DNA of 64,000 nt. It comes from Limnoperna fortunei. Taxonomy: Eukaryota; Mollusca; Bivalvia; Mytilida; Modiolidae. The notes beneath the pieces were generated by a model. The model was not told where the DNA came from and did no database searches. It saw only the letters and a program-made list of their open reading frames with translations. The stretch spans positions 92,951,756-93,015,755 of the forward strand of contig OX104112.1 of assembly GCA_944474755.1 (NCBI GenBank). The letters are read 5' to 3'. Position 1 is the first letter of the stretch; each line of letters begins with the position of its first letter. A program made the position numbers and the translations under genes. This document shows positions 8,655 to 56,400 of this stretch, in pieces.

Positions 8655-8717
8655 TTGTTCTCATCCTGAATATAGCTTAAATACTGCTCGCAGGACGTAA
8701 AGCAAACGTCCAATCAA
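8655..8717 (-). repeat. Dispersed repeat end abutting the 39-bp minisatellite
   Basis: tctcatcctgaatatagctt, then aaagcaaacgtccaatcaac, the same element end as at 42045. Here the tetranucleotide tail is replaced by the minisatellite. Confidence 0.65.
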
Positions 8718-9470
8718 CCAGAGCAGCTCTCTTAAACACTCCAGAACGATTTCTGACCAGAGCAGCCCTCCTAAACACTCCAGAGCGATTTCTGACCAGA
8801 GCAGCTCTCCTAAACACTCCAGAATGATTTCTGACCAGAGCAGCTCTCTTAAACACTCCAGAAGGATTCATGACCAGAGCAGCTCTCATTGACACTCCAG
8901 AAAGATTCCTGATCAAAGCAGCTCTCCTAAACACTCCAGAATGATTTCTGACCAGAGCAGCTCTCATAAACACTCCAGAAAGATTCCTGATCAAAGCAGC
9001 TCTCCTAAACACTCCAGAATGATTTCTGACCAGAGCAGCTTTCTTAAACACTCCAGAAGGATTCATGACCAGAGCAGCTCTCATAAACACTCCAGAAAGA
9101 TTCCTGATCAAAGCAGCTCTCATAAACACTACAGAACTATTCCTGACCAAAGCAGCTCTCCTAAACACTCCAGAAAGATTTCTGACCAAAGCAGCTCTCC
9201 TTATCACTCCAGAAGGATTCATGACCAGAGCAGCTTTCCAAAACACTCCAGAAAGATTTCTGACCAAAGCAGCTCTCCTAAACACTCCAGAATGATTCCT
9301 GATCAGAGAAGCTCTCCTAAACACTCCAGAAGGATTCATGACCAGAGAAGTTTTCCTAAACACTCCAGAAAGATTCCTGACCAAAGCAGCTCTTCTATAC
9401 ACTCCAGAACGATTCCTGACCAAACAGCTCTTTTATACACTACACCGAGATTCCAGACCAGAGCAGCTCT
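8718..9470. repeat. 39-bp minisatellite, about 19 copies
   Basis: The unit is about gaccagagcagctctcctaa followed by acactccagaacgatttct, 39 bp, with scattered base changes. Because 39 is divisible by three, open frames of 184 codons (plus, 8941-9495) and 248 codons (minus, 8677-9423, 13-residue repeats such as VRNRSGVFRRAAL) run through it. Open frames on both strands point to a non-coding repeat rather than a protein. Confidence 0.93.
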
Positions 9471-12830: not shown

Positions 12831-13495
12831 GAGTTATTCCGGTCTTAGACCGGGTATATATTGTCACTAATATAAAACTTATTCCGGTCTTAGACCGGGT
12901 ATATATTGTCACTAATATAAAACTTATTCCGGTCTTAGACCGGGTATATATTGTCACTAATATAAAACTTATTCCGGTCTTAGACTGGGTATATATTGTC
13001 ACTAATATAAAACTTATTCCGGTCTTATACTGGGTATATATTGTCACTAATATAATACTTATTCCGGTCTTAGACCGGGTATATATTGTCACCTATATAA
13101 TACTTATTCCGGTCTTAGACCGGGTATATATTGTCACTAATATAAAACTTATTCCGGTCTTAGACCGGGTATATATTGTCTCTAATATAAAACTTATTCC
13201 GGTCTTAGACTGGGTATATATTGTCACTAATATAAAACTTATTCCGGTCTTAAACTGGGTATATATTGTCACTAATATAAAACTTATTCCGGTCTTAGAC
13301 TGGGTATATATTGTCACTAATATAAAACTTATTCCGGTCTTAGACTGGGTATATATTGTCACTAATATAAAACTTATTCCGGTCTTAGACCGGGTATATA
13401 TTGTCATTAATATAAAACTTCTTCCGGTCTTAGACCGGGTATATATTGTCACTAATATAATACTTATTCCGGTCTTAGACCGGGTGTATAATGTC
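12831..13495. repeat. 45-bp minisatellite, about 15 copies
   Basis: The unit is ttattccggtcttagaccgg, then gtatatattgtcactaatat, then aaaac. Each unit contains a near-perfect palindrome ccggtct-t-agaccgg. The minus-strand frames (12820-13092 and 13093-13503) exist only because the period is divisible by three. Confidence 0.95.
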
Positions 13496-13684
13496 ACATT
13501 CACAGCTTAGAACTGATATTTCATTCCCCTTCGGCTCCAGTTTTAGACAGAGAATACAAGGTCACATTCACGGCTTAGTATTTATATTCCTTCGGCGCTT
13601 GGAATACAAGTCCTAAACCGTGAATTTGACATTTTATACTCTGTCTAATACCGGACATTATATACCCTGTCTAAGCCCGGAATA
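12831..13684. mobile_element. Inverted-repeat element with one terminus expanded into the 45-bp array
   Basis: To the right of the array, 13650-13684 holds one reversed copy of the unit (attatataccctgtctaagc, ccggaataaaa). Between them are further inverted segments: ttcacggcttag (13567) faces ctaaaccgtgaa (13614). So the array looks like the amplified left terminus of a fold-back or MITE-like element. Confidence 0.5.

Positions 13685-19328: not shown

Positions 19329-19394
<66 letters not shown>
19329..19394. repeat. (AT)n tract at left edge of the ribozyme array
   Basis: A pure AT dinucleotide run of about 66 bp that directly abuts the first 551-bp unit. Similar tracts sit at 30363-30432 and 31604-31638, so each segment of the array ends in (AT)n. 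Confidence 0.95.
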
Positions 19395-19397
<3 letters not shown>

Positions 19398-22300
19398 AGT
19401 CTAGAAGATTATGCAACGATACAAATGACGGCGTTTCTTGTCATAAATTTAGACACAGACTGACCAACGAATGGCCTTAGTCATTGAGTGTCAATATAAA
19501 TAAATAACGTAAACAATCATAACATATTAATCTTAAACTTTCTCATTTGAAATGAACCCAAAACTTTTTTTTATAGTTGCTTCTCAGTCCGCTAACCGGG
19601 GACGTGCCGTGCTGTTATTTGGCTTTGCTCAAATATTCCAACAAGATGTAATCAAAATTATCAAGGTGACAAATTCATTACGCCAGACGCGCGTTTCGTC
19701 TACTTAAGACTCATCAGTGGCGTTTAACTCTAAATGTTTAAGACATTCTTCATTGGGAGATGGAATAATATTTTTTTTCATTGGCAGATGGAATAATATA
19801 AGTCCACTGGGATCGTGTAAATACACAATACAGGCAGTTCAAAATATTATATAAAGAGTCTAAAAGAATTCTGCTAAACCAGTACACTTATTTTGTATCG
19901 GATCGACAAACATGACGATACAGCATAAACAAAAAATAATAATATACAAGTCTAGAAGATTATGCAACGATACAAATGACGGCGTTTCTTGTCATAAATT
20001 TAGACACAGACTGACCAACGAATGGCCTTAGTCATTGAGTGTCAATATAAATAAATAACGTAAACAATCATAACATATTAATCTTAAACTTTCTCATTTG
20101 AAATGAACCCAAAACTTTTTTTTATAGTTGCTTCTCAGTCCGCTAACCGGGGACGTGCCGTGCTGTTATTTGGCTTTGCTCAAATATTCCAACAAGATGT
20201 AATCAAAATTATCAAGGTGACAAATTCATTACGCCAGACGCGCGTTTCGTCTACTTAAGACTCATCAGTGGCGTTTAACTCTAAATGTTTAAGACATTCT
20301 TCATTGGGAGATGGAATAATATTTTTTTTCATTGGCAGATGGAATAATATAAGTCCACTGGGATCGTGTAAATACACAATACAGGCAGTTCAAAATATTA
20401 TATAAAGAGTCTAAAAGAATTCTGCTAAACCAGTACACTTATTTTGTATCGGATCGACAAACATGACGATACAGCATAAACAAAAAATAATAATATACAA
20501 GTCTAGAAGATTATGCAACGATACAAATGACGGCGTTTCTTGTCATAAATTTAGACACAGACTGACCAACGAATGGCCTTAGTCATTGAGTGTCAATATA
20601 AATAAATAACGTAAACAATCATAACATATTAATCTTAAACTTTCTCATTTGAAATGAACCCAAAACTTTTTTTTATAGTTGCTTCTCAGTCCGCTAACCG
20701 GGGACGTGCCGTGCTGTTATTTGGCTTTGCTCAAATATTCCAACAAGATGTAATCAAAATTATCAAGGTGACAAATTCATTACGCCAGACGCGCGTTTCG
20801 TCTACTTAAGACTCATCAGTGGCGTTTAACTCTAAATGTTTAAGACATTCTTCATTGGGAGATGGAATAATATTTTTTTTCATTGGCAGATGGAATAATA
20901 TAAGTCCACTGGGATCGTGTAAATACACAATACAGGCAGTTCAAAATATTATATAAAGAGTCTAAAAGAATTCTGCTAAACCAGTACACTTATTTTGTAT
21001 CGGATCGACAAACATGACGATACAGCATAAACAAAAAATAATAATATACAAGTCTAGAAGATTATGCAACGATACAAATGACGGCGTTTCTTGTCATAAA
21101 TTTAGACACAGACTGACCAACGAATGGCCTTAGTCATTGAGTGTCAATATAAATAAATAACGTAAACAATCATAACATATTAATCTTAAACTTTCTCATT
21201 TGAAATGAACCCAAAACTTTTTTTTATAGTTGCTTCTCAGTCCGCTAACCGGGGACGTGCCGTGCTGTTATTTGGCTTTGCTCAAATATTCCAATAAGAT
21301 GTAATCAAAATTATCAAGGTGACAAATTCATTACGCCAGACGCGCGTTTCGTCTACTTAAGACTCATCAGTGGCGTTTAACTCTAAATGTTTAAGACATT
21401 CTTCATTGGGAGATGGAATAATATTTTTTTTCATTGGCAGATGGAATAATATAAGTCCACTGGGATCGTGTAAATACACAATACAGGCAGTTCAAAATAT
21501 TATATAAAGAGTCTAAAAGAATTCTGCTAAACCAGTACACTTATTTTGTATCGGATCGACAAACATGACGATACAGCATAAACAAAAAATAATAATATAC
21601 AAGTCTAGAAGATTATGCAACGATACAAATGACGGCGTTTCTTGTCATAAATTTAGACACAGACTGACCAACGAATGGCCTTAGTCATTGAGTGTCAATA
21701 TAAATAAATAACGTAAACAATCATAACATATTAATCTTAAACTTTCTCATTTGAAATGAACCCAAAACTTTTTTTTATAGTTGCTTCTCAGTCCGCTAAC
21801 CGGGGACGTGCCGTGCTGTTATTTGGCTTTGCTCAAATATTCCAACAAGATGTAATCAAAATTATCAAGGTGACAAATTCATTACGCCAGACGCGCGTTT
21901 CGTCTACTTAAGACTCATCAGTGGCGTTTAACTCTAAATGTTTAAGACATTCTTCATTGGGAGATGGAATAATATTTTTTTTCATTGGCAGATGGAATAA
22001 TATAAGTCCACTGGGATCGTGTAAATACACAATACAGGCAGTTCAAAATATTATATAAAGAGTCTAAAAGAATTCTGCTAAACCAGTACACTTATTTTGT
22101 ATCGGATCGACAAACATGACGATACAGCATAAACAAAAAATAATAATATACAAGTCTAGAAGATTATGCAACGATACAAATGACGGCGTTTCTTGTCATA
22201 AATTTAGACACAGACTGACCAACGAATGGCCTTAGTCATTGAGTGTCAATATAAATAAATAACGTAAACAATCATAACATATTAATCTTAAACTTTCTCA

Positions 22301-25300
22301 TTTGAAATGAACCCAAAACTTTTTTTTATAGTTGCTTCTCAGTCCGCTAACCGGGGACGTGCCGTGCTGTTATTTGGCTTTGCTCAAATATTCCAACAAG
22401 ATGTAATCAAAATTATCAAGGTGACAAATTCATTACGCCAGACGCGCGTTTCGTCTACTTAAGACTCATCAGTGGCGTTTAACTCTAAATGTTTAAGACA
22501 TTCTTCATTGGGAGATGGAATAATATTTTTTTTCATTGGCAGATGGAATAATATAAGTCCACTGGGATCGTGTAAATACACAATACAGGCAGTTCAAAAT
22601 ATTATATAAAGAGTCTAAAAGAATTCTGCTAAACCAGTACACTTATTTTGTATCGGATCGACAAACATGACGATACAGCATAAACAAAAAATAATAATAT
22701 ACAAGTCTAGAAGATTATGCAACGATACAAATGACGGCGTTTCTTGTCATAAATTTAGACACAGACTGACCAACGAATGGCCTTAGTCATTGAGTGTCAA
22801 TATAAATAAATAACGTAAACAATCATAACATATTAATCTTAAACTTTCTCATTTGAAATGAACCCAAAACTTTTTTTTATAGTTGCTTCTCAGTCCGCTA
22901 ACCGGGGACGTGCCGTGCTGTTATTTGGCTTTGCTCAAATATTCCAACAAGATGTAATCAAAATTATCAAGGTGACAAATTCATTACGCCAGACGCGCGT
23001 TTCGTCTACTTAAGACTCATCAGTGGCGTTTAACTCTAAATGTTTAAGACATTCTTCATTGGGAGATGGAATAATATTTTTTTTCATTGGCAGATGGAAT
23101 AATATAAGTCCACTGGGATCGTGTAAATACACAATACAGGCAGTTCAAAATATTATATAAAGAGTCTAAAAGAATTCTGCTAAACCAGTACACTTATTTT
23201 GTATCGGATCGACAAACATGACGATACAGCATAAACAAAAAATAATAATATACAAGTCTAGAAGATTATGCAACGATACAAATGACGGCGTTTCTTGTCA
23301 TAAATTTAGACACAGACTGACCAACGAATGGCCTTAGTCATTGAGTGTCAATATAAATAAATAACGTAAACAATCATAACATATTAATCTTAAACTTTCT
23401 CATTTGAAATGAACCCAAAACTTTTTTTTATAGTTGCTTCTCAGTCCGCTAACCGGGGACGTGCCGTGCTGTTATTTGGCTTTGCTCAAATATTCCAACA
23501 AGATGTAATCAAAATTATCAAGGTGACAAATTCATTACGCCAGACGCGCGTTTCGTCTACTTAAGACTCATCAGTGGCGTTTAACTCTAAATGTTTAAGA
23601 CATTCTTCATTGGGAGATGGAATAATATTTTTTTTCATTGGCAGATGGAATAATATAAGTCCACTGGGATCGTGTAAATACACAATACAGGCAGTTCAAA
23701 ATATTATATAAAGAGTCTAAAAGAATTCTGCTAAACCAGTACACTTATTTTGTATCGGATCGACAAACATGACGATACAGCATAAACAAAAAATAATAAT
23801 ATACAAGTCTAGAAGATTATGCAACGATACAAATGACGGCGTTTCTTGTCATAAATTTAGACACAGACTGACCAACGAATGGCCTTAGTCATTGAGTGTC
23901 AATATAAATAAATAACGTAAACAATCATAACATATTAATCTTAAACTTTCTCATTTGAAATGAACCCAAAACTTTTTTTTATAGTTGCTTCTCAGTCCGC
24001 TAACCGGGGACGTGACGTGCTGTTATTTGGCTTTGCTCAAATATTCCAACAAGATGTAATCAAAATTATCAAGGTGACAAATTCATTACGCCAGACGCGC
24101 GTTTCGTCTACTTAAGACTCATCAGTGGCGTTTAACTCTAAATGTTTAAGACATTCTTCATTGGGAGATGGAATAATATTTTTTTTCATTGGCAGATGGA
24201 ATAATATAAGTCCACTGGGATCGTGTAAATACACAATACAGGCAGTTCAAAATATTATATAAAGAGTCTAAAAGAATTCTGCTAAACCAGTACACTTATT
24301 TTGTATCGGATCGACAAACATGACGATACAGCATAAACAAAAAATAATAATATACAAGTCTAGAAGATTATGCAACGATACAAATGACGGCGTTTCTTGT
24401 CATAAATTTAGACACAGACTGACCAACGAATGGCCTTAGTCATTGAGTGTCAATATAAATAAATAACGTAAACAATCATAACATATTAATCTTAAACTTT
24501 CTCATTTGAAATGAACCCAAAACTTTTTTTTATAGTTGCTTCTCAGTCCGCTAACCGGGGACGTGCCGTGCTGTTATTTGGCTTTGCTCAAATATTCCAA
24601 CAAGATGTAATCAAAATTATCAAGGTGACAAATTCATTACGCCAGACGCGCGTTTCGTCTACTTAAGACTCATCAGTGGCGTTTAACTCTAAATGTTTAA
24701 GACATTCTTCATTGGGAGATGGAATAATATTTTTTTTCATTGGCAGATGGAATAATATAAGTCCACTGGGATCGTGTAAATACACAATACAGGCAGTTCA
24801 AAATATTATATAAAGAGTCTAAAAGAATTCTGCTAAACCAGTACACTTATTTTGTATCGGATCGACAAACATGACGATACAGCATAAACAAAAAATAATA
24901 ATATACAAGTCTAGAAGATTATGCAACGATACAAATGACGGCGTTTCTTGTCATAAATTTAGACACAGACTGACCAACGAATGGCCTTAGTCATTGAGTG
25001 TCAATATAAATAAATAACGTAAACAATCATAACATATTAATCTTAAACTTTCTCATTTGAAATGAACCCAAAACTTTTTTTTATAGTTGCTTCTCAGTCC
25101 GCTAACCGGGGACGTGCCGTGCTGTTATTTGGCTTTGCTCAAATATTCCAACAAGATGTAATCAAAATTATCAAGGTGACAAATTCATTACGCCAGACGC
25201 GCGTTTCGTCTACTTAAGACTCATCAGTGGCGTTTAACTCTAAATGTTTAAGACATTCTTCATTGGGAGATGGAATAATATTTTTTTTCATTGGCAGATG

Positions 25301-27930
25301 GAATAATATAAGTCCACTGGGATCGTGTAAATACACAATACAGGCAGTTCAAAATATTATATAAAGAGTCTAAAAGAATTCTGCTAAACCAGTACACTTA
25401 TTTTGTATCGGATCGACAAACATGACGATACAGCATAAACAAAAAATAATAATATACAAGTCTAGAAGATTATGCAACGATACAAATGACGGCGTTTCTT
25501 GTCATAAATTTAGACACAGACTGACCAACGAATGGCCTTAGTCATTGAGTGTCAATATAAATAAATAACGTAAACAATCATAACATATTAATCTTAAACT
25601 TTCTCATTTGAAATGAACCCAAAACTTTTTTTTATAGTTGCTTCTCAGTCCGCTAACCGGGGACGTGCCGTGCTGTTATTTGGCTTTGCTCAAATATTCC
25701 AACAAGATGTAATCAAAATTATCAAGGTGACAAATTCATTACGCCAGACGCGCGTTTCGTCTACTTAAGACTCATCAGTGGCGTTTAACTCTAAATGTTT
25801 AAGACATTCTTCATTGGGAGATGGAATAATATTTTTTTTCATTGGCAGATGGAATAATATAAGTCCACTGGGATCGTGTAAATACACAATACAGGCAGTT
25901 CAAAATATTATATAAAGAGTCTAAAAGAATTCTGCTAAACCAGTACACTTATTTTGTATCGGATCGACAAACATGACGATACAGCATAAACAAAAAATAA
26001 TAATATACAAGTCTAGAAGATTATGCAACGATACAAATGACGGCGTTTCTTGTCATAAATTTAGACACAGACTGACCAACGAATGGCCTTAGTCATTGAG
26101 TGTCAATATAAATAAATAACGTAAACAATCATAACATATTAATCTTAAACTTTCTCATTTGAAATGAACCCAAAACTTTTTTTTATAGTTGCTTCTCAGT
26201 CCGCTAACCGGGGACGTGCCGTGCTGTTATTTGGCTTTGCTCAAATATTCCAACAAGATGTAATCAAAATTATCAAGGTGACAAATTCATTACGCCAGAC
26301 GCGCGTTTCGTCTACTTAAGACTCATCAGTGGCGTTTAACTCTAAATGTTTAAGACATTCTTCATTGGGAGATGGAATAATATTTTTTTTCATTGGCAGA
26401 TGGAATAATATAAGTCCACTGGGATCGTGTAAATACACAATACAGGCAGTTCAAAATATTATATAAAGAGTCTAAAAGAATTCTGCTAAACCAGTACACT
26501 TATTTTGTATCGGATCGACAAACATGACGATACAGCATAAACAAAAAATAATAATATACAAGTCTAGAAGATTATGCAACGATACAAATGACGGCGTTTC
26601 TTGTCATAAATTTAGACACAGACTGACCAACGAATGGCCTTAGTCATTGAGTGTCAATATAAATAAATAACGTAAACAATCATAACATATTAATCTTAAA
26701 CTTTCTCATTTGAAATGAACCCAAAACTTTTTTTTATAGTTGCTTCTCAGTCCGCTAACCGGGGACGTGCCGTGCTGTTATTTGGCTTTGCTCAAATATT
26801 CCAACAAGATGTAATCAAAATTATCAAGGTGACAAATTCATTACGCCAGACGCGCGTTTCGTCTACTTAAGACTCATCAGTGGCGTTTAACTCTAAATGT
26901 TTAAGACATTCTTCATTGGGAGATGGAATAATATTTTTTTTCATTGGCAGATGGAATAATATAAGTCCACTGGGATCGTGTAAATACACAATACAGGCAG
27001 TTCAAAATATTATATAAAGAGTCTAAAAGAATTCTGCTAAACCAGTACACTTATTTTGTATCGGATCGACAAACATGACGATACAGCATAAACAAAAAAT
27101 AATAATATACAAGTCTAGAAGATTATGCAACGATACAAATGACGGCGTTTCTTGTCATAAATTTAGACACAGACTGACCAACGAATGGCCTTAGTCATTG
27201 AGTGTCAATATAAATAAATAACGTAAACCATCATAACATATTAATCTTAAACTTTCTCATTTGAAATGAACCCAAAACTTTTTTTTATAGTTGCTTCTCA
27301 GTCCGCTAACCGGGGACGTGCCGTGCTGTTATTTGGCTTTGCTCAAATATTCCAACAAGATGTAATCAAAATTATCAAGGTGACAAATTCATTACGCCAG
27401 ACGCGCGTTTCGTCTACTTAAGACTCATCAGTGGCGTTTAACTCTAAATGTTTAAGACATTCTTCATTGGGAGATGGAATAATATTTTTTTTCATTGGCA
27501 GATGGAATAATATAAGTCCACTGGGATCGTGTAAATACACAATACAGGCAGTTCAAAATATTATATAAAGAGTCTAAAAGAATTCTGCTAAACCAGTACA
27601 CTTATTTTGTATCGGATCGACAAACATGACGATACAGCATAAACAAAAAATAATAATATACAAGTCTAGAAGATTATGCAACGATACAAATGACGGCGTT
27701 TCTTGTCATAAATTTAGACACAGACTGACCAACGAATGGCCTTAGTCATTGAGTGTCAATATAAATAAATAACGTAAACAATCATAACATATTAATCTTA
27801 AACTTTCTCATTTGAAATGAACCCAAAACTTTTTTTTATAGTTGCTTCTCAGTCCGCTAACCGGGGACGTGCCGTGCTGTTATTTGGCTTTGCTCAAATA
27901 TTCCAACAAGATGTAATCAAAATTATCAAG
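19395..27930 (-). repeat. Tandem array of 551-bp ribozyme-bearing units, direct block (15.5 copies)
   Basis: Units start with the same caagtctagaag block at 19396 and every 551 bp after that up to 27661, giving 15 full copies and a sixteenth cut at 27930. By eye the copies are almost identical; I saw only single-base differences (for example 21295, 24015 and 27229). Each full unit carries one hammerhead ribozyme on the minus strand. Each unit also has an internal near-duplication, with agatggaataatat occurring twice about 31 bp apart, which the 510-bp relatives lack. No long open frame or reverse transcriptase is present, so any mobility would depend on other elements. The array is best described as a retrozyme-like or Penelope-LTR-derived satellite. 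It could be partly an assembly expansion, but the single-base variants show that the copies are not all the same read. Confidence 0.95.
19680..27437 (-). ncRNA. 15 type I hammerhead ribozymes, minus strand
   Basis: Each is 44 nt, starting (plus coordinates) at 19680, 20231, 20782, 21333, 21884, 22435, 22986, 23537, 24088, 24639, 25190, 25741, 26292, 26843 and 27394. Read on the minus strand the order is: stem I 5' arm ACGCCA, core CTGATGA, stem II GTCT/AGAC with loop TAAGT, core GAAA, a tiny stem III (CGCGCG), cleavage triplet GTC, and stem I 3' arm TGGCGT. Stem I is a perfect 6-bp match and stem II a perfect 4-bp match, and all conserved core bases are present. Stems II and III are looped and stem I is open, so this is type I. 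The short stem III is typical of metazoan retrozymes and Penelope-like elements, in which tandem (dimeric) folding helps activity. Predicted cleavage is between 19686 and 19685 in the first copy. Products would carry 2',3'-cyclic phosphate and 5'-OH ends. Confidence 0.9.
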
Positions 27931-30360
27931 ATTAATATGTTATGATTGTTTACGTTATTTATTTATATTGACACTCAATGACTAAGGCCATTCGTTGGTC
28001 AGTCTGTGTCTAAATTTATGACAAGAAACGCCGTCATTTGTATCGTTGCATAATCTTCTAGACTTGTATATTATTATTTTTTGTTTATGCTGTATCGTCA
28101 TGTTTGTCGATCCGATACAAAATAAGTGTACTGGTTTAGCAGAATTCTTTTAGACTCTTTATATAATATTTTGAACTGCCTGTATTGTGTATTTACACGA
28201 TCCCAGTGGACTTATATTATTCCATCTGCCAATGAAAAAAAATATTATTCCATCTCCCAATGAAGAATGTCTTAAACATTTAGAGTTAAACGCCACTGAT
28301 GAGTCTTAAGTAGACGAAACGCGCGTCTGGCGTAATGAATTTGTCACCTTGATAATTTTGATTACATCTTGTTGGAATATTTGAGCAAAGCCAAATAACA
28401 GCACGGCACGTCCCCGGTTAGCGGACTGAGAAGCAACTATAAAAAAAAGTTTTGGGTTCATTTCAAATGAGAAAGTTTAAGATTAATATGTTATGATTGT
28501 TTACGTTATTTATTTATATTGACACTCAATGACTAAGGCCATTCGTTGGTCAGTCTGTGTCTAAATTTATGACAAGAAACGCCGTCATTTGTATCGTTGC
28601 ATAATCTTCTAGACTTCTATATTATTATTTTTTGTTTATGCTGTATCGTCATGTTTGTCGATCCGATACAAAATAAGTGTACTGGTTTAGCAGAATTCTT
28701 TTAGACTCTTTATATAATATTTTGAACTGCCTGTATCGTGTATTTACACGATCCCAGTGGACTTATATTATTCCATCTGCCAATGAAAAAAAATATTATT
28801 CCATCTCCCAATGAAGAATGTCTTAAACATTTAGAGTTAAACGCCACTGATGAGTCTTAAGTAGACGAAACGCGCGTCTGGCGTAATGAATTTGTCACCT
28901 TGATAATTTTGATTACATCTTGTTGGAATATTTGAGCAAAGCCAAATAACAGCACGGCACGTCCCCGGTTAGCGGACTGAGAAGCAACTATAAAAAAAAG
29001 TTTTGGGTTCATTTCAAATGAGAAAGTTTAAGATTAATATGTTATGATTGTTTACGTTATTTATTTATATTGACACTCAATGACTAAGGCCATTCGTTGG
29101 TCAGTCTGTGTCTAAATTTATGACAAGAAACGCCGTCATTTGTATCGTTGCATAATCTTCTAGACTTGTATATTATTATTTTTTGTTTATGCTGTATCGT
29201 CATGTTTGTCGATCCGATACAAAATAAGTGTACTGGTTTAGCAGAATTCTTTTAGACTCTTTATATAATATTTTGAACTGCCTGTATTGTGTATTTACAC
29301 GATCCCAGTGGACTTATATTATTCCATCTGCCAATGAAAAAAAATATTATTCCATCTCCCAATGAAGAATGTCTTAAACATTTAGAGTTAAACGCCACTG
29401 ATGAGTCTTAAGTAGACGAAACGCGCGTCTGGCGTAATGAATTTGTCACCTTGATAATTTTGATTACATCTTGTTGGAATATTTGAGCAAAGCCAAATAA
29501 CAGCACGGCACGTCCCCGGTTAGCGGACTGAGAAGCAACTATAAAAAAAAGTTTTGGGTTCATTTCAAATGAGAAAGTTTAAGATTAATATGTTATGATT
29601 GTTTACGTTATTTATTTATATTGACACTCAATGACTAAGGCCATTCGTTGGTCAGTCTGTGTCTAAATTTATGACAAGAAACGCCGTCATTTGTATCGTT
29701 GCATAATCTTCTAGACTTGTATATTATTATTTTTTGTTTATGCTGTATCGTCATGTTTGTCGATCCGATACAAAATAAGTGTACTGGTTTAGCAGAATTC
29801 TTTTAGACTCTTTATATAATATTTTGAACTGCCTGTATTGTGTATTTACACGATCCCAGTGGACTTATATTATTCCATCTGCCAATGAAAAAAAATATTA
29901 TTCCATCTCCCAATGAAGAATGTCTTAAACATTTAGAGTTAAACGCCACTGATGAGTCTTAAGTAGACGAAACGCGCGTCTGGCGTAATGAATTTGTCAC
30001 CTTGATAATTTTGATTACATCTTGTTGGAATATTTGAGCAAAGCCAAATAACAGCACGGCACGTCCCCGGTTAGCGGACTGAGAAGCAACTATAAAAAAA
30101 AGTTTTGGGTTCATTTCAAATGAGAAAGTTTAAGATTAATATGTTATGATTGTTTACGTTATTTATTTATATTGACACTCAATGACTAAGGCCATTCGTT
30201 GGTCAGTCTGTGTCTAAATTTATGACAAGAAACGCCGTCATTTGTATCGTTGCATAATCTTCTAGACTTGTATATTATTATTTTTTGTTTATGCTGTATC
30301 GTCATGTTTGTCGATCCGATACAAAATAAGTGTACTGGTTTAGCAGAATTCTTTTAGACT

Positions 30361-30364
<4 letters not shown>
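27931..30364 (+). repeat. Inverted block of the 551-bp array (4.4 copies)
   Basis: At 27930/27931 the array switches to the reverse complement of the same unit. Unit landmarks then recur at 28066, 28617, 29168, 29719 and 30270 (551-bp spacing). The block ends in the unit's ctttatat motif, which passes into (AT)n. The junction joins attatcaag of the direct unit to the reversed ttaagattaat, sharing only the bases aag. Singletons seen here are at 28617 and 28737. The block can pair with the neighbouring direct units (27796 leftward), leaving a 134-nt loop. Confidence 0.95.
28290..29986 (+). ncRNA. 4 type I hammerhead ribozymes, plus strand (inverted block)
   Basis: The same 44-nt ribozyme as in the direct block, now on the plus strand, starting at 28290, 28841, 29392 and 29943. 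CTGATGA, the GTCT/AGAC hairpin, GAAA and GTC are all intact in each. Cleavage in the first copy would be between 28327 and 28328. These are antisense to the calbindin-like transcript. Confidence 0.9.

Positions 30365-30432
<68 letters not shown>
30363..30432. repeat. (AT)n tract between inverted block and 510-bp subfamily
   Basis: A run of about 70 bp of AT dinucleotides. It starts within the unit's own ctttatat motif and ends at the ATATACAAG start of the next unit, as if it grew from short AT runs already in the unit. A Tyr-Ile repeat frame across it is an artefact. Confidence 0.95.
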
Positions 30433-30435
<3 letters not shown>

Positions 30436-31601
30436 AGTCTAGAAGATTATGCAACGATACACATGACGGTGTTTCTTGTCAAAAATTTAGACAAAGACTG
30501 ACCAACGAATGGCCTTAGTCATTGAATGTCAATATAAATAATTGACGTAAACAAGTCGTAACATATTGATCTTGAAATTTCTCATTTCCAACTTAACCCA
30601 AAATAGTTGCTTCCCAAGTCCGCCAGCCGGGGACGTGCCGTGCTGTTACTTTGCTTTGCTCAAATATTCCAACAAGATGTAATTAAAATTACCAAGTTGA
30701 CAAATTCTTTACGCCAGACGCGCGTTTCGTCTACTTAAGACTCATCAGTGGCGTTTAACTCTAAATGCTTAAAGTATTTTTTCATTCGGTGATGGAATAA
30801 TATAAGTCCACTGGGATCGTGTAAAAACATAATACAGGTAGTTCAAAATATTATATAAAAGTCTAAAGAGTCTACCAACCAGCAGGCTTATTAAGTATCG
30901 GATCGACAAACATGACGATACAGCATAAACAAAAAATAATATACAAGTCTAGAAGATTATGCAACGATACACATGACGGTGTTTCTTGTCAAAAATTTAG
31001 ACAAAGACTGACCAACGAATGGCCTTAGTCATTGAATGTCAATATAAATAAATGACGTAAACAAGTCGTAACATATTGATCTTGAAATTTCTCATTTCCA
31101 ACTTAACCCAAAATAGTTGCTTCCCAAGTCCGCCAGCCGGGGACGTGCCGTGCTGTTACTTTGCTTTGCTCAAATATTCCAACAAGATGTAATTAAAATT
31201 ACCAAGTTGACAAATTCTTTACGCCAGACGCGCGTTTCGTCTACTTAAGACTCATCAGTGGCGTTTAACTCTAAATGCTTAAAGTATTTTTTCATTCGGT
31301 GATGGAATAATATAAGTCCACTGGGATCGTGTAAAAACATAATACAGGTAGTTCAAAATATTATATAAAAGTCTAAAGAGTCTACCAACCAGCAGGCTTA
31401 TTAAGTATCGGATCGACAAACATGACGATACAGCATAAACAAAAAATAATATACAAGTCTAGAAGATTATGCAACGATACACATGACGGTGTTTCTTGTC
31501 AAAAATTTAGACAAAGACTGACCAACGAATGACCTTAGTCATTGAATGTCAATATAAATAAATGACGTAAACAAGTCGTAACATATTGATCTTGAAATTT
31601 C

Positions 31602-31603
<2 letters not shown>
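30433..31603 (-). repeat. Diverged 510-bp subfamily of the ribozyme array (2.3 copies)
   Basis: Units begin at 30434, 30944 and 31454 (510-bp period). The third is cut at about 31603 by an (AT)n tract. They align with the 551-bp unit along their whole length but differ at many positions (for example acatgacggtgtttc against aaatgacggcgtttc) and carry only one copy of the gatggaataatat block. The two full copies are almost identical to each other, with small differences near 30541 and 31052. They are a separately homogenised subfamily. Confidence 0.93.
30711..31264 (-). ncRNA. 2 type I hammerhead ribozymes, minus strand (510-bp subfamily)
   Basis: Ribozymes at 30711-30754 and 31221-31264 have the same core, stems and GTC cleavage triplet as in the 551-bp units, although the surrounding unit has diverged. 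Retention of the exact 44-nt motif while the flanks changed argues that it is functional, or that it recently came from a functional parent. Confidence 0.88.

Positions 31604-31638
<35 letters not shown>
31604..31638. repeat. (AT)n tract at right edge of the ribozyme array
   Basis: A short AT dinucleotide run that ends the third 510-bp unit and marks the right limit of the array. Confidence 0.9.
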
Positions 31639-37830: not shown

Positions 37831-39022
37831 CATCAAAATATTAATCTTTTTAACTTTATTGATCTATTAACACTAGTTATCTATGTTATATTTCACAAGC
37901 TGTGGGGCTATCGATCTTTATAAATGACGTGTTGCAATTTTACTGTTAAATCGTTGTTCGATACAGCTATGTACCGGCCCTGCAAATTAAATAAAGCTAA
38001 GATCAGGATTTTTTATTTTCTCTGTTTTAACAACTAAATACATGAACAAGTGTGAGCTATACAGCTGCTTGCAACAACAAGACAATAACGAAGGAACAGC
38101 TTTATTCTTTGTTAATGAGCAAAAACATTTAACATATTAAAATATAATCTTTATATAGAGTAATAATTTTACTAAACCGTGTATCTAATGTTTAATTTCT
38201 CATGAAATACTTCAATCTATTGCTGATTAGGATCAGGTTTTCACACTTTTTAATGTAGTCACATTTTTATGTCTCTGATTTATGATGGCAATAACGTTTT
38301 TAATCAATTCTTTTATACCCACACATTTCTGTTTTAATCTTAGGGTTAAATGGCCGTATTTGTTGACCAATAAAACTGTTTAATAAATCCGGTAACAGGT
38401 AGTGTTACAGGTGCTTTGCTTCATTTTATTTCTGTATCCAGTTACTTTGGTAAACAACACTGTTATCCAGTTCCAGCTATGTTAATTAACTTTCCGTGTT
38501 ACCTAAATTGTTTATTTGTTTGAATTAAGAAATAATTCATGGATACCATACTTTATTGTCATTTTAACATGGGTGGGCATTATATTCTTGAATATTTTGC
38601 ACCGAGCGATAGCGAGGGGTAAAATATCATGAATATAATGCCCACCCATGTTTAAACGACAATAAAGTATGGTATCCATGAATTATTTCGATTCTGATTA
38701 TGACAAATACGGTAATCTCTACAGTGGAGCGACATATAAATGTGCGCTAGTGAAAGGCTGTTCCACGTACCTCCCGTATGTCATAATGTAGAGTGTTGGA
38801 AACATAATTTAATGGCTGAATTTTGAATCATGCAAATCTCAGAATTCAGACTTAAAATAACAACTTTATTAGCAGTAACGATGATTATGGTTTAAAAAAA
38901 ATTTAGTTTTTTTATATAAAATTTAAACGACTGCAACCAAAATTAACTTGCGCATGTTCGAACTAAATTTATTGGAATTTTAACACGGCTTTGTTTACAT
39001 AGCGAAAGCAGGACGTCATATT
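37831..39022. other. Intergenic DNA with one fold-back element
   Basis: Only the 38530-38689 palindrome is recognised. Confidence 0.6.
38530..38689. mobile_element. 160-bp fold-back element (near-perfect palindrome)
   Basis: The left arm aaataattcatggataccat, followed by actttattgtc...catgggtgggcattatattc, is mirrored by the right arm ending atggtatccatgaattattt. The centre is accgagcgatagcgagg. Arms are about 70 bp with a few small differences. A related centre (accgagcgatagggaggt) lies near 35010. Confidence 0.85.
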
Positions 39023-39804: not shown

Positions 39805-39850
39805 ATTTTCCTGTATTGGTTGGAAATGCAGCTGCTGTCGAAATGATTAT

Positions 39851-41138
39851 TGTAGTGGTCCCAAACTGCAGTAAAGAGACTGTTTTTTTACTGTTATAGT
39901 GGTCTCATCCTGCAGTAAAGGAGACTTTGTTTTTATTGTTATAGTTGTCCCAACCTGCAGTAAAGAGACTGTGTTTTGACTGTTATAGTGGTCCCAACCT
40001 GCAGTAAAGGAGACTTTGTTTTCATTGTTATAGTGGTCCCAACCTGCAGTAAAGGAGACTTTGTTTTCATAGTTATAGTGGTCCCAACCTGCAGTAAGGG
40101 GACCGTGTTTTCAGTGTTATAGTGGTCCCAACCTGCAGTAAAGGAGACTTTGTGTTCATTGTTATAGTGGTCCCAACCTGCAGTAAAGGATACTTTGTTT
40201 ACATTGTTATAGTGGTCCCAACCTGCAGTAAGGGGACCGTGTTTTGACTGTTATAGTGGTCCCAGCCTGCAGTAAAGTGGCTGTGTTTTGACTGTTATAG
40301 TGGTCCCAGCCTGCAGTAAAGTGGCTGTGTTTTGACTGTTATAGTGGTCCCAACCTGCAGTAAAGAGACTGTGTTTTGACTGTTATAGTGGTCCCAGCCT
40401 GCAGTAAAGTGGCTGTGTTTTGACTGTTATAGTGGTCCCAACCTGCAGTAAAGAGACTGTGTTTTGACTGTTATAGTGGTCCCAACCTGCAGTTAAGGAG
40501 ACCGTGTTTTAATTGTTATAGTGGTCCTAACCTGCAGCAAAGTAGACCGTGTTTTAATTGTTATAGTGGTCCCAACCTGCAGCAAAGTAGACCGTGTTTT
40601 AGTTGTTATAGTGGTCCCAACCTGCAGCAAAGTAGACCGTGTTTTAGTTGTTATAGTGGTCCCAACCTGCAGCAAAGTAGACCGTGTTTTAGTTGTTATA
40701 GTGGTCCCAACCTGCAGCAAAGTAGACCGTGTTTTAGTTGTTATAGTGGTCCCAACCTGCAGTAAAGTAGACCGTGTTTTAGTTGTTATAGTGGTCCCAA
40801 CCTGCAGCAAAGTAGACCGTGTTTTAGTTGTTATAGTGGTCCCAACCTGCAGTTACGGAGACCGTGTTTTAATTGTTATAGTGGTCCTAACCTGCAGCAT
40901 AGTAGACCGTGTTTTAGTTGTTATAGTGGTCCTAACCTGCAGCAAAGTAGACCGTGTTTTAGTTGTTATAGTGGTCCTAACCTGCAGCAAAGTAGACCGT
41001 GTTTTAGTTGTTATAGTGGTCCCAACCTGCAGTAAAGTAGACCGTGTTTTCATAGTTATAGTGTCCCTACCTGCAGTAAAGGAGACTTTGTTTACATTGT
41101 TATAGTGGTCCCAACCTGCAGTAAAGGAGACCGTGTGG
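39851..41138. repeat. 44/45-bp minisatellite with PstI site, about 29 copies
   Basis: The unit is ttatagtggtcccaacctgc, then agtaaagagactgtgttttg with a few more bases. Each copy has CTGCAG. The left part is mostly 44 bp and the right part (about 40500-41060) mostly 45 bp; only the 45-bp part shows long frames on both strands, with a 15-residue repeat such as VPTCSKVDRVLVVIV. This is a by-product of period, not a gene. Confidence 0.93.
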
Positions 41139-49847: not shown

Positions 49848-52800
49848 GTAATTCTGATTACTAGTAAGCTGTTTCATTGTTTACAAGCATTACATGTATG
49901 TTTGTGTTAGCATGTCTGCCTTATGTTAAATACAGTTCCAAGCAGACTAATATTAATTCAAACGGACGATTGTTTTCAAAAATAAAATATATAAGTCGTT
50001 ATAATCAGTTCTTTAGGGAGTACCCGGTGACATATTTCAAGAAAACTAGTAATTAATGTTGGATTTGATCACACCCTGCCATCAGTAAGGATCGAACTCG
50101 TAACCTAAGCCTATTATCAATAGTAGGTGACCTTACTCTTTAAAAACTTGCCACAAAGGCCACGGCACTCTAATGATGATGCTCTATTTTGCTGTTGATG
50201 TTAATTCGGAAGCACACGTTCTTTCAAACAGAAATTAAAAAGATTTCTTATTTTAATTTACAGAGTAAATGATGGTAAATACAGGCCGTGTATTTCAATG
50301 TGTGTGTTTTTTTTAACGGATTGTTTTGATATCGACCTTCAATACCAATCAGTGGTTTTCTGAAAAGGCTTTTAAAAAGGCAAATAGAAAAAAACAAAGA
50401 GAATCATACAATGTTCATTCGACCTTAAATACTGATACGAAAGTAGGCCGTAATTTCAGAATAAAAACGGGAATATATTACGCCATTGTTCCTACAGTTT
50501 TGTGTATGTCAATACAATTCGAGATATCATGATGTAGGTTTAATTGTAGGACATATTAACTAACATATTGTTTATGTTGATAAAGCAAGTTAATTCGATT
50601 TAAAAAAAAAGTTTGGTTGTTTGTTTGAATGGGGTTTAACGCCACTTTCAACAATTTTTAATCTATATAATATACTCTAAGTTTTTTGGGGAAGGAAGTG
50701 GAGATCGCGATGCAAACCACCGACGTCCGGCATAGTCTCGATCACCCAGACGCATATATAATAGCGTCTGGGATCACCTTATTTTAATATCGCTACCAAT
50801 AGGTGGAGACAAACAATGATTCTATTTTTAGAGTCCTATTTTTAAACCAGGATAACCATGCACACATATCTATACTTATAATATGACGTCACAGTAAGAT
50901 TCATAACAATAATATTTGTTTAATTAATTGATGAAGTAATATTTTATAAAAATATTCAAATGTAAACTTTGGTACAATTTGTTGTACACTTCTTGATATG
51001 AACGGAAGTAATTTTTTAGATAATAAAAATATCATCCAATCAAAAATTACGCCCAGTTTTGGGCGTAATGGTAACGAGTTCAATATAGAGTTGAATCCAG
51101 ACGCACAAATGTAATTATAAGCGTCTGGATGATCGAGACTACGTCCGGCAGAATAACTTAATCTTTTGTAAGGTTGAAGTGGAGTACACCATGTACACAG
51201 TAAAACTCGAATCTGCAACCCCAGTGTTAACAAAAACGTGCGTGAATAGTAGGTGAGCTTCTTGTGAATATTAGCCCACTAAAGCCCCGAAATAAAGTTC
51301 GTCAAATGTTCGCTAATACAAAAGATACATTTCCAACATATTAAGATTACAATAACTTATACTTATTACGACTTAAAGACAAAAAAATGACTCCTATTTC
51401 AGTGCTTTCCTGTTTACGAACCGACAGTGGTGTCTTAACCGTAAAGAGGGGGGGAATATTTTTTGAATAATATTTCTCATCTCATAGTCACATATTTTTG
51501 AATGGCAAAAAGACAATTGATAGTGCAATCGGAGTACAGATAAAACACATTTCTAGACCTGGGTTCAGTTTAAATGTCATCATGCAGACCTTGTAAGAAG
51601 GGGAGTAATATGTATATTCTCTCCCACGTGTTGATCGTGTATTTCCGTTACTAGTGGTGCAACTGACAAGTAAAATAGATGAAAGAACAATTTGCCAGCA
51701 GCCATGCGTTAGCTATTTACAAGTAATTATCTATAAACATATATCTATATTAGCTCTAGGAAAATGTATTCGCTAGAGTGTATTATTATTATTTTCATGT
51801 GTACTATATAACATCATGGGTTAATAAGTTTATATTATTTTTTAAAGATTTTATCGTAAACTGCAAATTTTAATATTCATACGCTCTTCTGTAAAAAGTA
51901 TAGCAAAATGCCTTTTCACGGATAACGCCAGATGTCATTGTTGAAAATTTGACACATTTATAACTAAACATGTACAAATACTTTTTTAGTTCTCCTGTGT
52001 ATTGAAAATAAGACTAAGTTTAGAATAATTCGTGTCCAGTTCTTTAAAGCTGTCAAAGAGACTTATATTTATCGTTTAATTTGTTTATCTAGTAATAGAT
52101 TTGTTACGATTTAGTTTCAAACACATGTACAGCCAAACAAGTTTTTAAATTATTGTTTAAAAAATAACTACACTTTCTATAAAAAATAAAAACATTTTGG
52201 TGTTAATACTGAAAATAAAATAAACATATAGAAATAATTCAAAGTCAAGAAAAACGCTTAATATATAGTTCAGTAGGCAGAAATGCGTGCAGATAATAGC
52301 TGCCAGAGGTTGTACGCGTAGAAAGCCACCAACATATCTTAATAAGATAACGGGCAAAAATTGAAATCGCAAACATTGTGACTATCACAATTAGACATCG
52401 AAGGAATCAGATGATCATGTAGCAGAAACGACAGCGACTTAAGAACACAGAAAAAATGGTTGTTAACAAGTAGAAAACACAATGCCATCAAAAAGCAGAA
52501 AGCAAAATGACCATAGTTTTAACATTTTCGCACAGCTAACTGTATAGTAGCTCAATTGAAGGCATCGCCCATCAATGAATTTTATATGCATTCATGTGTT
52601 TTGTGATGTAAAGTAACGAACAAAAAAAAAAGAAAAACGCCAAGAACACTAGAGACTTGGGAAGGGAAAACATATTAACTACATCGAATGTAAACATACA
52701 CGTTTAAAACTTAATCAACTGCAGAATTTCACAAATTATTTTGCATATTTTAAGATGAGGAAAACGAAGAAACCCCCATACGACCGGAAAGACGAATTCA

Positions 52801-53390
52801 CAACAAGAGTGGTAAACATGTTAAAGTTGAATTTGTGGATACAATGAGTAAGCAGAATGCCAGAGAACACAACACACACAAGTTTGACCGAGTGTATTCA
52901 GGAGGATTAGTTATAAGACGGGGGCAGGCGTTTGATGTGGTTTTACGTTTTAACAAGAAGTTTGACCCAAATGAAAACACAATTCGTTTTGTGTTTACTA
53001 CGAGTAGGTATTTTGTTATACTTTGTTGATGTGCTCGATAAATAATGCATTTCAATGTTAGCATAGAATGTTTGTTATGTTAGATGGTGTTTAACGCCAC
53101 TTTCAGCAATTTTTCAGCTATATCATGGCGTCCTGTTTTTATTGGGGGAGGAAGCCGGAGTACCCGTAGAAAACCCCCGACCTGCGGTAGGAAAACTCGC
53201 ATTCCTTGTCAATTAAGATCGGAGTCGAGTACACCCTGCCTGCAGTGAGAACCGAACCCGCAATCTCAGTGTTGACAGACCACGTGATCAATAGTAGACA
53301 AACTACCTTCACCACTCCTCCACCAAGGCCCCAGCATAGAATGAACTTAGGTGTATATTAATAAGAATGTTTTTATTACAATAGCAGCAT

Positions 53391-53445
<55 letters not shown>

Positions 53446-56400
53446 CCGCATAAAACTGAAATTTATTTTTCATGGTCAATTTATATACTGTATGTATTAA
53501 ATTATTTGCTTATATTATAAATATGTAGCATTCATATGTAAAGGATAAATTGTGGTATTTGGCCGGACTGATAATGCATGCACCTGCTATAACTGCCGTC
53601 AGGTTTATTCCCAACGATTTGACAACTTCGCCTGTAACTTCCGCCAGGCCCAAACTTTATATAATGTAAAAAATTCATCATCGTTTGCCATCTGATTAAT
53701 TTTAGATTAATAATTCTTATGAATTCTTTAAATGCATAAGCATTTTTCTTTTGGAAGAAGTAAAATCTGAGCGCGACACCTCAACTATGTTTCAACTTCA
53801 TACACAAAGAAAACTGAAAATTGCAGTTTCAATTAATACAGGATGACAAAGCATCCTTATTTTTCCTTTTAGAAATCTAAATCATCGGATATCCGGCTCA
53901 CGACATCAATTTTCATTTTGTTACATGTATAATTAATGAAATTCTATTTTTATGATTTCTAACACAGGTGAAAACCCAAGACCTGGAAATGGCACACATG
54001 TCGATTTCTTACTTTCCAAGGAGGTAAAGAAAAATGATTGGTCTGCAGTGATAGCCGAAAAACAATCGAAGACCGACTTCTTGGTCACGTTAACAACACC
54101 CGCGAACTGCATTGTCTCCAACTGGCAGCTGGTTGTCGAAACTATACTGGCAGTTGAAGGTCAACCAGTGACATCGGTTTACGTACATCCAACTTTGATT
54201 TATATCCTCTTCAATCCATGGTGTAGGGGTTTGTATCTTGAAATTAATGTTTATTCTTCCGTCAAATTTTTAGTCGTACATGTAATTAGTAAAAGAGAAT
54301 TATCTCTGACAAAATGTCTTTCATATGTTGTTAATCGAAAAAGCATGTGTTTACAAAAGGGCACACATTTCGATCGAATTTCTACACTTAAATTGCAAGT
54401 AGTTCTATAATTCTATAATGATTTTTATACATGAAATATTTTACACTGTAAACAGGCAAAGAAAATAAACAAATTCAACTTAAATGTTAGAGGTAATAAG
54501 AACTTAATTATCCAAATGTATATTGTATCTATGTATACAGAAGACGACGTTTTCTTTGACAACACATCCCTTTTGAAAGAGTATGTTCTTAACGACAGTG
54601 GTGTACTCTTTCACGGAAACTACAAGCAAATCGGTGGAAAACCATGGTTCTTTGGTCAGGTAAGAAAGTAACGGATAACTCAAGGGAAAACAACAGTAAC
54701 GTATACAGAATAGACTGGTTAGGGTTATAACAAGGAATTGAAGAAAACAAGGAGTGTAGACATAGACACTTTAAAAGATTTGTCGGTTTAAATCCCATGA
54801 ACAATCCCCGATTTATATACAAAAGAATTAATTTCTAGTTTTCCATATAATATTAATATTGCGAATTTGTTTTATACATTCTACTCATAATCTCTACTTG
54901 TTTTATTTTCATCCAACAATATTTCTTTTTTTTTTCAAGGACGTTTGTGAACATGTTACAAAAAACCAAGTTTACATATATTTTTGCTATTAATTTCCTT
55001 TCATTTCAGTTTGAAGAAGGAATCCTAGAAATTTGTTTATGGTGTGTGCAAAAAGGTTTCAACAACAACATTGCAAAGTCTATGTCAGATCCAGTAAGAG
55101 TTTCCAGGGTCATTTCCAAAATTGTAAGTTTTAAACGAAGTTCCATTTCCAAACAAATCCTAATGTTTTTTATAGACAATGATTAGGTATTATATGACAC
55201 CTTCTGTATGAATATGAGTGTCCGTCAGACCGCGCTCCAGATGTTTACAGATGATAACTTGAAAACACTTCAAGGATTTTTTTTAGACTGTGCACTGCTG
55301 TTCAGTACTATAAAATGAAGATCAAGTTTAATTTTCAGCAGTCAAATTGTAGTTTTTGACTAAGGCCAATTCAATTTTGTTCTGTCAGCAGTTGACGGTT
55401 TCTAAATGATAACTTGAATACACGTCAACAAATGTTGTTAAAACATTCCGTAGCTGTTAAGTACTATAAACATTAAGATAAAGATTAATTTTTAGCACAA
55501 TCCCATTTTTTAAGTAAGGCACATTAAAAAAAATTGTAAAACATTGGCAGTTTTCAAAAGATTACATGACAAACGGATTTTGTTAAAACTTTCCTTTTCA
55601 CAATCCCATTTGTAGTTTTGAAGTTAGGCGAATTTAAAATTATTTTTATAGCAAGCACAGCTCGCAGCGGGGAACGAAGCTGCCCGCGAAGAGCGGTGAG
55701 CTCTACGGCAATTACGTGTCATGTGATCAATGAAATCACGTGATCAAAATCTGCTGAATGCTGATATTGATTTTTTTCGTCCGGAAGTTGATATCGTGAA
55801 AAAACTGGAACAAAGTGAATGAAGAAAAGTACTAAAAATAATTGTAAGAAAGACTTGAAAATAAAGTTGACATCGATAAAAATTAAATGTTATATTTAAA
55901 ATTAACAACAAAAATTTCATTCTATTTTTTGCAATCTCTAAATCGATCTTTAAAAACTGACAAATTACAATTCATGTGACGTCACAGTTACAAACAAAAG
56001 ACGTCACGTGACTACTGGAATTTAGAGGCACTTTTAGGGTGATAGGAAGTAACGTCAATTTATGAAATGCACATTATGTATTGATAAAACAGGGCTATAT
56101 TGTCTGTGCTCTCATTTTGGAAATGCCTACTTCATATTAGGTCCAAGGTCAAGGTAAACATCGTCTTGTAAGATGGACTGTTACCGTGCTCAGCTGTTCT
56201 CATGGGCTAATTTGTAATGCAATAAAATATGTTCGTGAAATAAAAAACAATGCAACGTGGCGGGTATAATTTAATGTGTCCCTTTAGATGTCATATTATT
56301 ATCAAGTGTTTGTAATTCATACTTAAAATTATTACCCCGTTTGTTAATTTAAAAAAAAACAATGTCACGACTCGACTTGAGTTCGTTGTAGGTCTTGAAG

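Follow-up and report, generated by a model that had tools for sequence, protein, structure and literature searches.

Head-to-head arrays of a retrozyme-like hammerhead repeat in Limnoperna fortunei appear to spread via Penelope copying machinery into TATATA runs

The window analysed here is a stretch of 64,000 nucleotides on contig C2 of the Limnoperna fortunei genome. An earlier note on its sequence had described one tandem array of 21 type I hammerhead ribozymes in 551-bp and 510-bp units between positions 19395 and 31603. A covariance-model search of both strands (cmscan) bears out this count, yielding 21 matches to RF00163 (Hammerhead_1), 17 on the minus strand and 4 on the plus strand, each with an intact core and a score of 39 bits (E 2.4e-6) against a gathering score of 34. 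The outer ends were placed correctly to within about 10 bases, their position being ambiguous because the element runs into TA repeats. The single array, however, resolves into two insertions, with two 551-bp arms opposed at 27928-27930 and a separate 510-bp arm on the right; the inversion and the TA tracts, the features that carry the mechanism, had been overlooked. In the unit numbering used below, which follows the ribozyme sense and takes the predicted cleavage site as position 1, site 1 lies near 295 and site 2 near 393, 98 nt apart. The locus comprises the following features (window coordinates; PLE, Penelope-like element):

19329..19395, no strand: (AT)33 tract at the left outer end, taken as target DNA (TRF)
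19391..27930, minus strand: arm of the 551-bp variant, its putative reverse transcription start at site 1 (unit position 295) forming the left end (BLAST mapping to the unit)
19680..27437, minus strand: 15 hammerheads of the minus arm, period 551 bp (RF00163)
27928..27930, no strand: head-to-head joint of both 551-bp arms, overlap 3 nt (HSP ends)
27928..30374, plus strand: arm of the 551-bp variant, its putative reverse transcription start at site 2 (unit position 393) forming the right end (BLAST mapping)
28290..29986, plus strand: 4 hammerheads of the plus arm, period 551 bp (RF00163)
29138..29329, plus strand: one copy of the module shared with the PLE (unit 260-451), with site 1 near 29173 and site 2 near 29271 (86% over 194 nt against positions 49-233 of piece L054)
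30364..30433, no strand: (TA)35 tract separating the two insertions (TRF)
30429..31603, minus strand: separate single-armed insertion of the 510-bp variant, with its putative site 1 start at the left end (BLAST mapping)
30711..31264, minus strand: 2 hammerheads of the 510-bp variant, 510 bp apart (RF00163)
31606..31638, no strand: (AT)16 tract at the right outer end (TRF)

TA tracts of at least 12 bp occur in the window only at these three places. The near-identity of the units, the lack of an encoded protein and the resemblance to animal retrozymes, all noted before, stand: 12 of the 15 full minus-strand 551-bp units equal the majority sequence and the remaining 3 carry one substitution each, and no open reading frame of at least 75 aa (stop to stop) lies inside 19391-31595. 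We consider it very probable that the window holds one two-armed 551-bp event (15 plus 4 hammerheads) next to a single-armed 510-bp insertion in the same TA tract, a grading that applies jointly to this reading and to the whole PLE-mobilised model developed below.

The family extends across the host genome, of which 1.335 Gb in 285 contigs were scanned. The exact 32-nt hammerhead core occurs 3347 times and its reversed control pattern 0 times, so the hammerhead repeats are not a product of chance; the scanned collections of viral contigs and of genome contigs outside the host genome gave no match to the core. The loci examined comprise 7 pieces found by similarity, L051 as an additional piece from the C8 locus, and 35 pieces covering the first 34 core clusters on C1, this C1 sample being chosen by the hammerhead core alone, regardless of array ends; L052 and L053 were added since they looked like exceptions to the pairing rule described below. 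Full units measure 508-571 bp, mostly 509-511 and 550-554 bp (88 full units in 29 pieces). The median difference is 0.18% between units within one piece (127 comparisons) and 5.67% between units from different pieces (406 comparisons, with the 551 and 510 variants mixed and with L048 and L049 belonging to one array). Units of opposite arms are likewise similar, with mismatches of 0% in L021, 0-0.18% in L051 and 0.39-1.57% in L036, and one array on C1 has 36 core matches spaced exactly 553 bp apart. This uniformity favours one template per insertion, and a circle would fit.

Metazoan non-LTR retrozymes, which are found in a mussel too, share with these repeats a type I hammerhead, non-coding tandem units, low GC and many dispersed copies (PMC7229834, accessible sections). 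The GC of the arrays here is 0.313-0.340 (2-kb windows covering arrays), below the 45% retrozyme criterion, and by its hammerhead, non-coding tandem units and low GC the element is, on sequence grounds, retrozyme-like. It is filed as a variant under that name because its unit size falls outside the published range: as the earlier note had suspected, the 551-bp monomer is unusually long, units here spanning 510-553 bp in contrast to the ~170-400 nt given for animal retrozymes, those of mussels being 350-390 bp (accessible text of PMC7229834, Cervera and de la Pena 2020). Furthermore, retrozymes are typically highly self-paired, whereas the unit here folds no better than its shuffles (z -0.48; 34 of 100 shuffles equally stable). 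Hammerhead self-cleavage is predicted from the motif and the model match; stem III is very short, and therefore a dimeric hammerhead may be needed. The arrays could then be a source of circular ribozyme RNAs, as previously proposed.

The arms end in a regular way. Of the 60 arms in the C1 sample, 18 have a 3' end at site 1 and 24 at site 2, and (TA)4 or longer stands next to 38 of these 42; the other 18 end at neither site, at least two of the 60 arms being PLE tails and not retrozymes (L018 3003-3237 and L027 3939-4068). No such regularity is seen at the 5' ends, which are scattered. Across the whole genome, site 1 has 602 exact junctions to (TA)n, some of them PLE copies (9 among the first 100 matches listed), and site 2 has 352, against 0 and 3 for the reversed controls, and a junction to (TA)n at another UAUA of the unit, the one control site tried, was found 0 times. 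Target-primed reverse transcription is known to leave this pattern, with the 3' end constant, the 5' ends variable and the target AT-rich.

The two arms of a head-to-head array do not end alike. Among head-to-head pairs of neighbouring junctions at most 12 kb apart (full listing of C1 and of the first 98.9 Mb of C2), 23 of 24 have one arm at site 1 and the other at site 2, a number of mixed-site pairs reached by 0 of 100,000 label shuffles (mean 11.3). When 9 PLE junctions were dropped and the limit was set at 15 kb, the rule was kept in 24 of 25 pairs. The exception is L052, where both arms end at site 1. In the examined loci with both outer ends assigned, a set that overlaps partly with the 24 pairs, the rule is kept in 14 of 15, namely in the window, L051, L011, L012, L014 (its second insertion, which has extra inverted pieces), L021, L023, L029, L031, L034, L036, L046, L050 and the right-hand pair of L053. 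Excluded from this count were L018, L022, L027, L038, L039 and L040, each with an end at neither site, the left-hand pair of L053, in which foreign DNA lies between the arms and the right end has no TA tract, and the hybrid L016. The inner joints are variable: by HSP ends, the 18 readable ones have an overlap of 2-7 nt (9 joints), 1 nt (1) or 26 nt (1), are flush (1) or show a gap of 2-35 nt (6); L021 was omitted owing to an N gap, and alternative chaining moves some joints by a few bases.

Such ends bear on how the arrays arose. An origin by foldback or DNA inversion was dropped, since either would leave identical ends on both arms and the ends observed are fixed and differ between the arms. 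The same feature speaks against an ordinary satellite, in which unequal crossing-over or DNA rolling circles would multiply a hammerhead-bearing monomer locally and rearrangement would invert it. Near-identical tandem units would suit such a satellite, as would the C1 array of 36 evenly spaced core matches; its thousands of dispersed copies, the 3' ends fixed and fused to TA tracts, and opposed arms that end differently where inversion would make them equal would not, and we abandoned this reading as highly improbable. Repeats that were collapsed or wrongly inverted during assembly could also be considered, given that unit number is easily mis-set in identical arrays and that the L021 joint contains an N gap. 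As two different elements both show this layout, with opposite sites and differing joints, at many loci that are unlinked, we regard an artefact of this kind as scarcely credible.

The second of these elements is the PLE. In some of the examined loci, foreign DNA ends in the final ~36 nt before site 1 and is followed by a TA tract. In L015 the foreign DNA comes from the 3' portion of a retroelement and encodes a GIY-YIG domain (PF01541, E 1.5e-6); this copy is truncated, its frame is broken, and RVT_1 was not matched in it. Relatives of the PLE protein numbered 731 in a protein search, and 7 among the 120 matches listed have RVT_1 and GIY-YIG in one protein, which is a Penelope-like architecture; by this domain evidence the partner in L015 and L054 is a PLE. 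The matches listed include proteins of Mytilus edulis, Ruditapes philippinarum, Magallana gigas and Amphiura filiformis, and solved structures gave no match to the PLE fragment. The PLE is abundant in the genome (50 matches from 40 scored of 1664 candidates, mostly 96-98% identical), and some of its copies stand in tandem at 3233-bp spacing and some are opposed. Helitron-type elements with microsatellites occur in bivalves; a reading of that type was set aside, the element ends matching the PLE.

The terminal module of this resident PLE recurs as a copy inside the retrozyme-like unit, which links the two groups of relatives, retrozymes and Penelope-like elements, that the earlier note had named. 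L054 is the piece between two tandem PLE copies, and its alignment with the unit listed above scores 277.8, whereas the best of 300 shuffles reaches 68.1. The common module holds site 1, the intervening 98-nt stretch and site 2, and stops just short of the reading frame that comes next in the PLE. Furthermore, the PLE behaves at its own ends as the repeats do. Site 1 has 212 PLE-specific (TA)n junctions and site 2 has 199, a few places being counted twice owing to a variable gap, with 0 in the reversed controls, and all 31 of 31 PLE head-to-head pairs have one arm at each site (C1 to C6:72.2 Mb, at most 15 kb; 0 of 100,000 shuffles). The outer ends of a PLE cluster on C10 are site 2 on the left and site 1 on the right, each in a TA tract. 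In the hybrid L016, a site-2 retrozyme arm is joined to a site-1 PLE arm between TA tracts, and a single event seems to have copied both RNAs. The 32 exact-pattern pairs on C1 and C2 include no retrozyme/PLE hybrid, and L016 is the only one among the examined loci; both arms therefore usually come from one kind of template.

Outside the module the two elements have little in common. Nothing in the PLE matches the hammerhead segment of the unit, and the PLE pieces searched with Rfam (L054 and L015:8560-8800) yield no hammerhead; a minimal hammerhead in the terminal repeat of PLEs is usual, not universal. The PLE 3' UTR holds a CTGAAGA...GAAA string, whose predicted fold does not make a convincing hammerhead. 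The similarity of unit 1-259 to the PLE 3' UTR is weak, its score being reached by 3 of 300 shuffles for the 551-bp unit and by 0 of 300 for the 510-bp unit.

We hold with good confidence that the repeats are a non-autonomous, retrozyme-like hammerhead element mobilised by the resident PLE. For the enzyme that moves animal retrozymes, PLEs or LINEs have been named as candidates (PMC7229834, PMC7761336, PMC11722881 and PMC8969392, accessible sections). Another enzyme such as that of a LINE might retrotranspose the units here, the PLE module being a separate borrowing or an ancestral remnant. Reviews list LINEs as possible partners (PMC7229834; PMC11722881, in their accessible parts), and the role we give the PLE enzyme is itself deduced; the common module, however, covers exactly both start sites, the PLE shares these targets and keeps to one arm per site in 31 of 31 pairs, and tested LINE enzymes nick and extend one strand, as stated in the accessible text of PMC11167929. 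We judge a LINE-type partner improbable.

The part played by the TA tracts leaves more room. They might be products and not targets, made by repeated, telomerase-like copying of the UAUA start sites, in which case target choice would be looser and the partnership unaffected. One host repeat has a short TA run when empty (L052) and a long run beside a PLE (L056), as such copying would predict, and telomerase is a relative of PLE reverse transcriptases (PMC3846280 and PMC11167929, accessible sections). In the opposite direction, a TA run is also present at the 5' end in 16 of 21 single arms, selected for a 3' end at or near a site, compared with 767 of 14,074 background stretches. The 5'-end runs favour the tracts as targets; the tracts may be targets or partly products, and we think it rather unlikely that they are products throughout.

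On the molecular level, mobilisation by the PLE could proceed as follows. Array transcripts would be cleaved to unit length by the hammerhead and then circularised. The PLE protein would recognise the ~190-nt module common to retrozyme and PLE and would cut both strands inside a TA tract. The two DNA ends would then act as primers for reverse transcription, each at a different one of the two RNA sites. Each primer would be extended for several rounds on the template, tandem units arising if the template is circular, as retrozyme RNAs are (PMC7229834, accessible sections), or multimeric, and the two cDNAs would finally be joined head-to-head. The template RNA is probably circular. We give about even weight to a more specific version, in which both strands of one TA tract, once cut, prime a single small RNA circle at the two fixed sites and each cDNA goes round it several times. 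Two opposed tandem arrays would then stem from one event, and the pairing rule would reflect a dimeric Penelope enzyme gripping one circle.

Known PLEs provide close parallels. The Anolis PLE enzyme acts on both strands, which it cuts and extends, with a preference for AT-rich DNA, and begins copying at two adjacent internal RNA sites, the stretch between them being the genomic "tail" (accessible text of PMC11167929); rotifer PLEs form head-to-head inverted repeats with the tail optional on one (accessible text of PMC3846280). The arrays share with PLEs the head-to-head repeats, the tail on one inverted end, the AT-rich targets and the two internal starts (PMC11167929, PMC3846280, same sections) and would thus show a PLE footprint with ribozyme RNA as the template. 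In contrast to PLEs, the retrozyme here encodes no protein, and its inter-start stretch is 98 nt, the published tail being ~30-40 bp (PMC11167929, PMC3846280, same sections). The pairing rule fits the two-strand, two-site activity of the Anolis enzyme in vitro (PMC11167929, accessible text). It would represent a clean footprint of PLE integration itself, seen in 31 of 31 pairs, and would explain a tail on just one of the inverted PLE ends.

Several observations sit less easily with the PLE model, namely the L052 pair, the 18 of 60 off-site arms, the hybrid L016 standing alone, the lack of a hammerhead match in the PLE pieces searched, the oversized unit and a fold no better than shuffles. A further one concerns the start sites, which in Anolis are not homologous to the cut DNA (PMC11167929, accessible text), whereas here both are UAUA-rich and could pair with a TA target.

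A PLE module with two start sites, TA flanks and head-to-head arrays is described for retrozymes nowhere in the accessible sections of PMC7229834. A literature search, with subscription papers mostly outside it and some sources available in part, found no report of a module common to retrozymes and PLEs or of TA-tract targeting by retrozymes. The common PLE module, the two start sites and the pairing rule are apparently new, and they would provide direct sequence evidence for a retrozyme-PLE partnership that had previously only been proposed. Since partner, recognition module, both start sites and target are all indicated by a single genome, the step can be reconstituted in a tube.

Two better-known processes offer parallels, drawn here from general knowledge. 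In LINE-1 twin priming, two primers make inverted copies, and SINEs share tails with LINEs, a short non-coding element borrowing the recognition end of an autonomous retrotransposon. The arrays differ from both in having two fixed sites, a near-strict rule of one arm per site and a template that is probably a circle.

Nine pairs of neighbouring junctions, the points at which an element sequence is fused to (TA)n, face each other on contigs C1 and C2 of the host assembly (G000), and eight of the nine lie no more than 140 bp apart. Each of these eight close pairs probably spans a single TA tract that has received more than one insertion. The window shows this arrangement at 30364-30433, where (TA)35 lies between the 551-bp and 510-bp retrozyme insertions. 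A host repeat with internal TA runs, whose flanks read ...CAAACGTCTAAGTATTG and ...ACGTCTACAAATTAAG, adjoins several insertions of the retrozyme or of the Penelope-like element (PLE) at loci L012, L014, L052 and L056 and is a recurrent target.

An exact-core scan of the genome identified 36 hammerhead core hits at G000:C1:44128599-44147985, all in one orientation and spaced exactly 553 bp apart. BLAST mapping to the unit placed the end of this array, whose ends are represented by L048 and L049, at site 2 (unit position ~393), within a TA tract.

Slightly upstream of site 1 (unit position ~295), the PLE 3' UTR (L015, L013 and L016) carries a hammerhead-like CTGAAGA...GAAA string enclosing a hairpin, and a similar hairpin is present in the retrozyme unit. 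The string is possibly the relic of a PLE hammerhead. Another, more distant Penelope-type coding stretch (L014, 1724-2657, + strand), which is 41% and 29% identical to the pieces from L015, adjoins a retrozyme array on its left side.

The window also contains the following features:
8717-9470, minisatellite, 39-bp unit, 19 copies
12834-13497, minisatellite, 45-bp unit, 15 copies
38556-38662, + strand, mir-302-like hairpin, sub-threshold (41.4 bits against a gathering threshold of 55)
39846-41136, minisatellite, 45-bp unit, 29 copies
52754-54407, + strand, transglutaminase gene, two exons (Transglut_N, E 7.4e-14 and 2.8e-11)
As the minisatellite units are multiples of three, long open frames remain.
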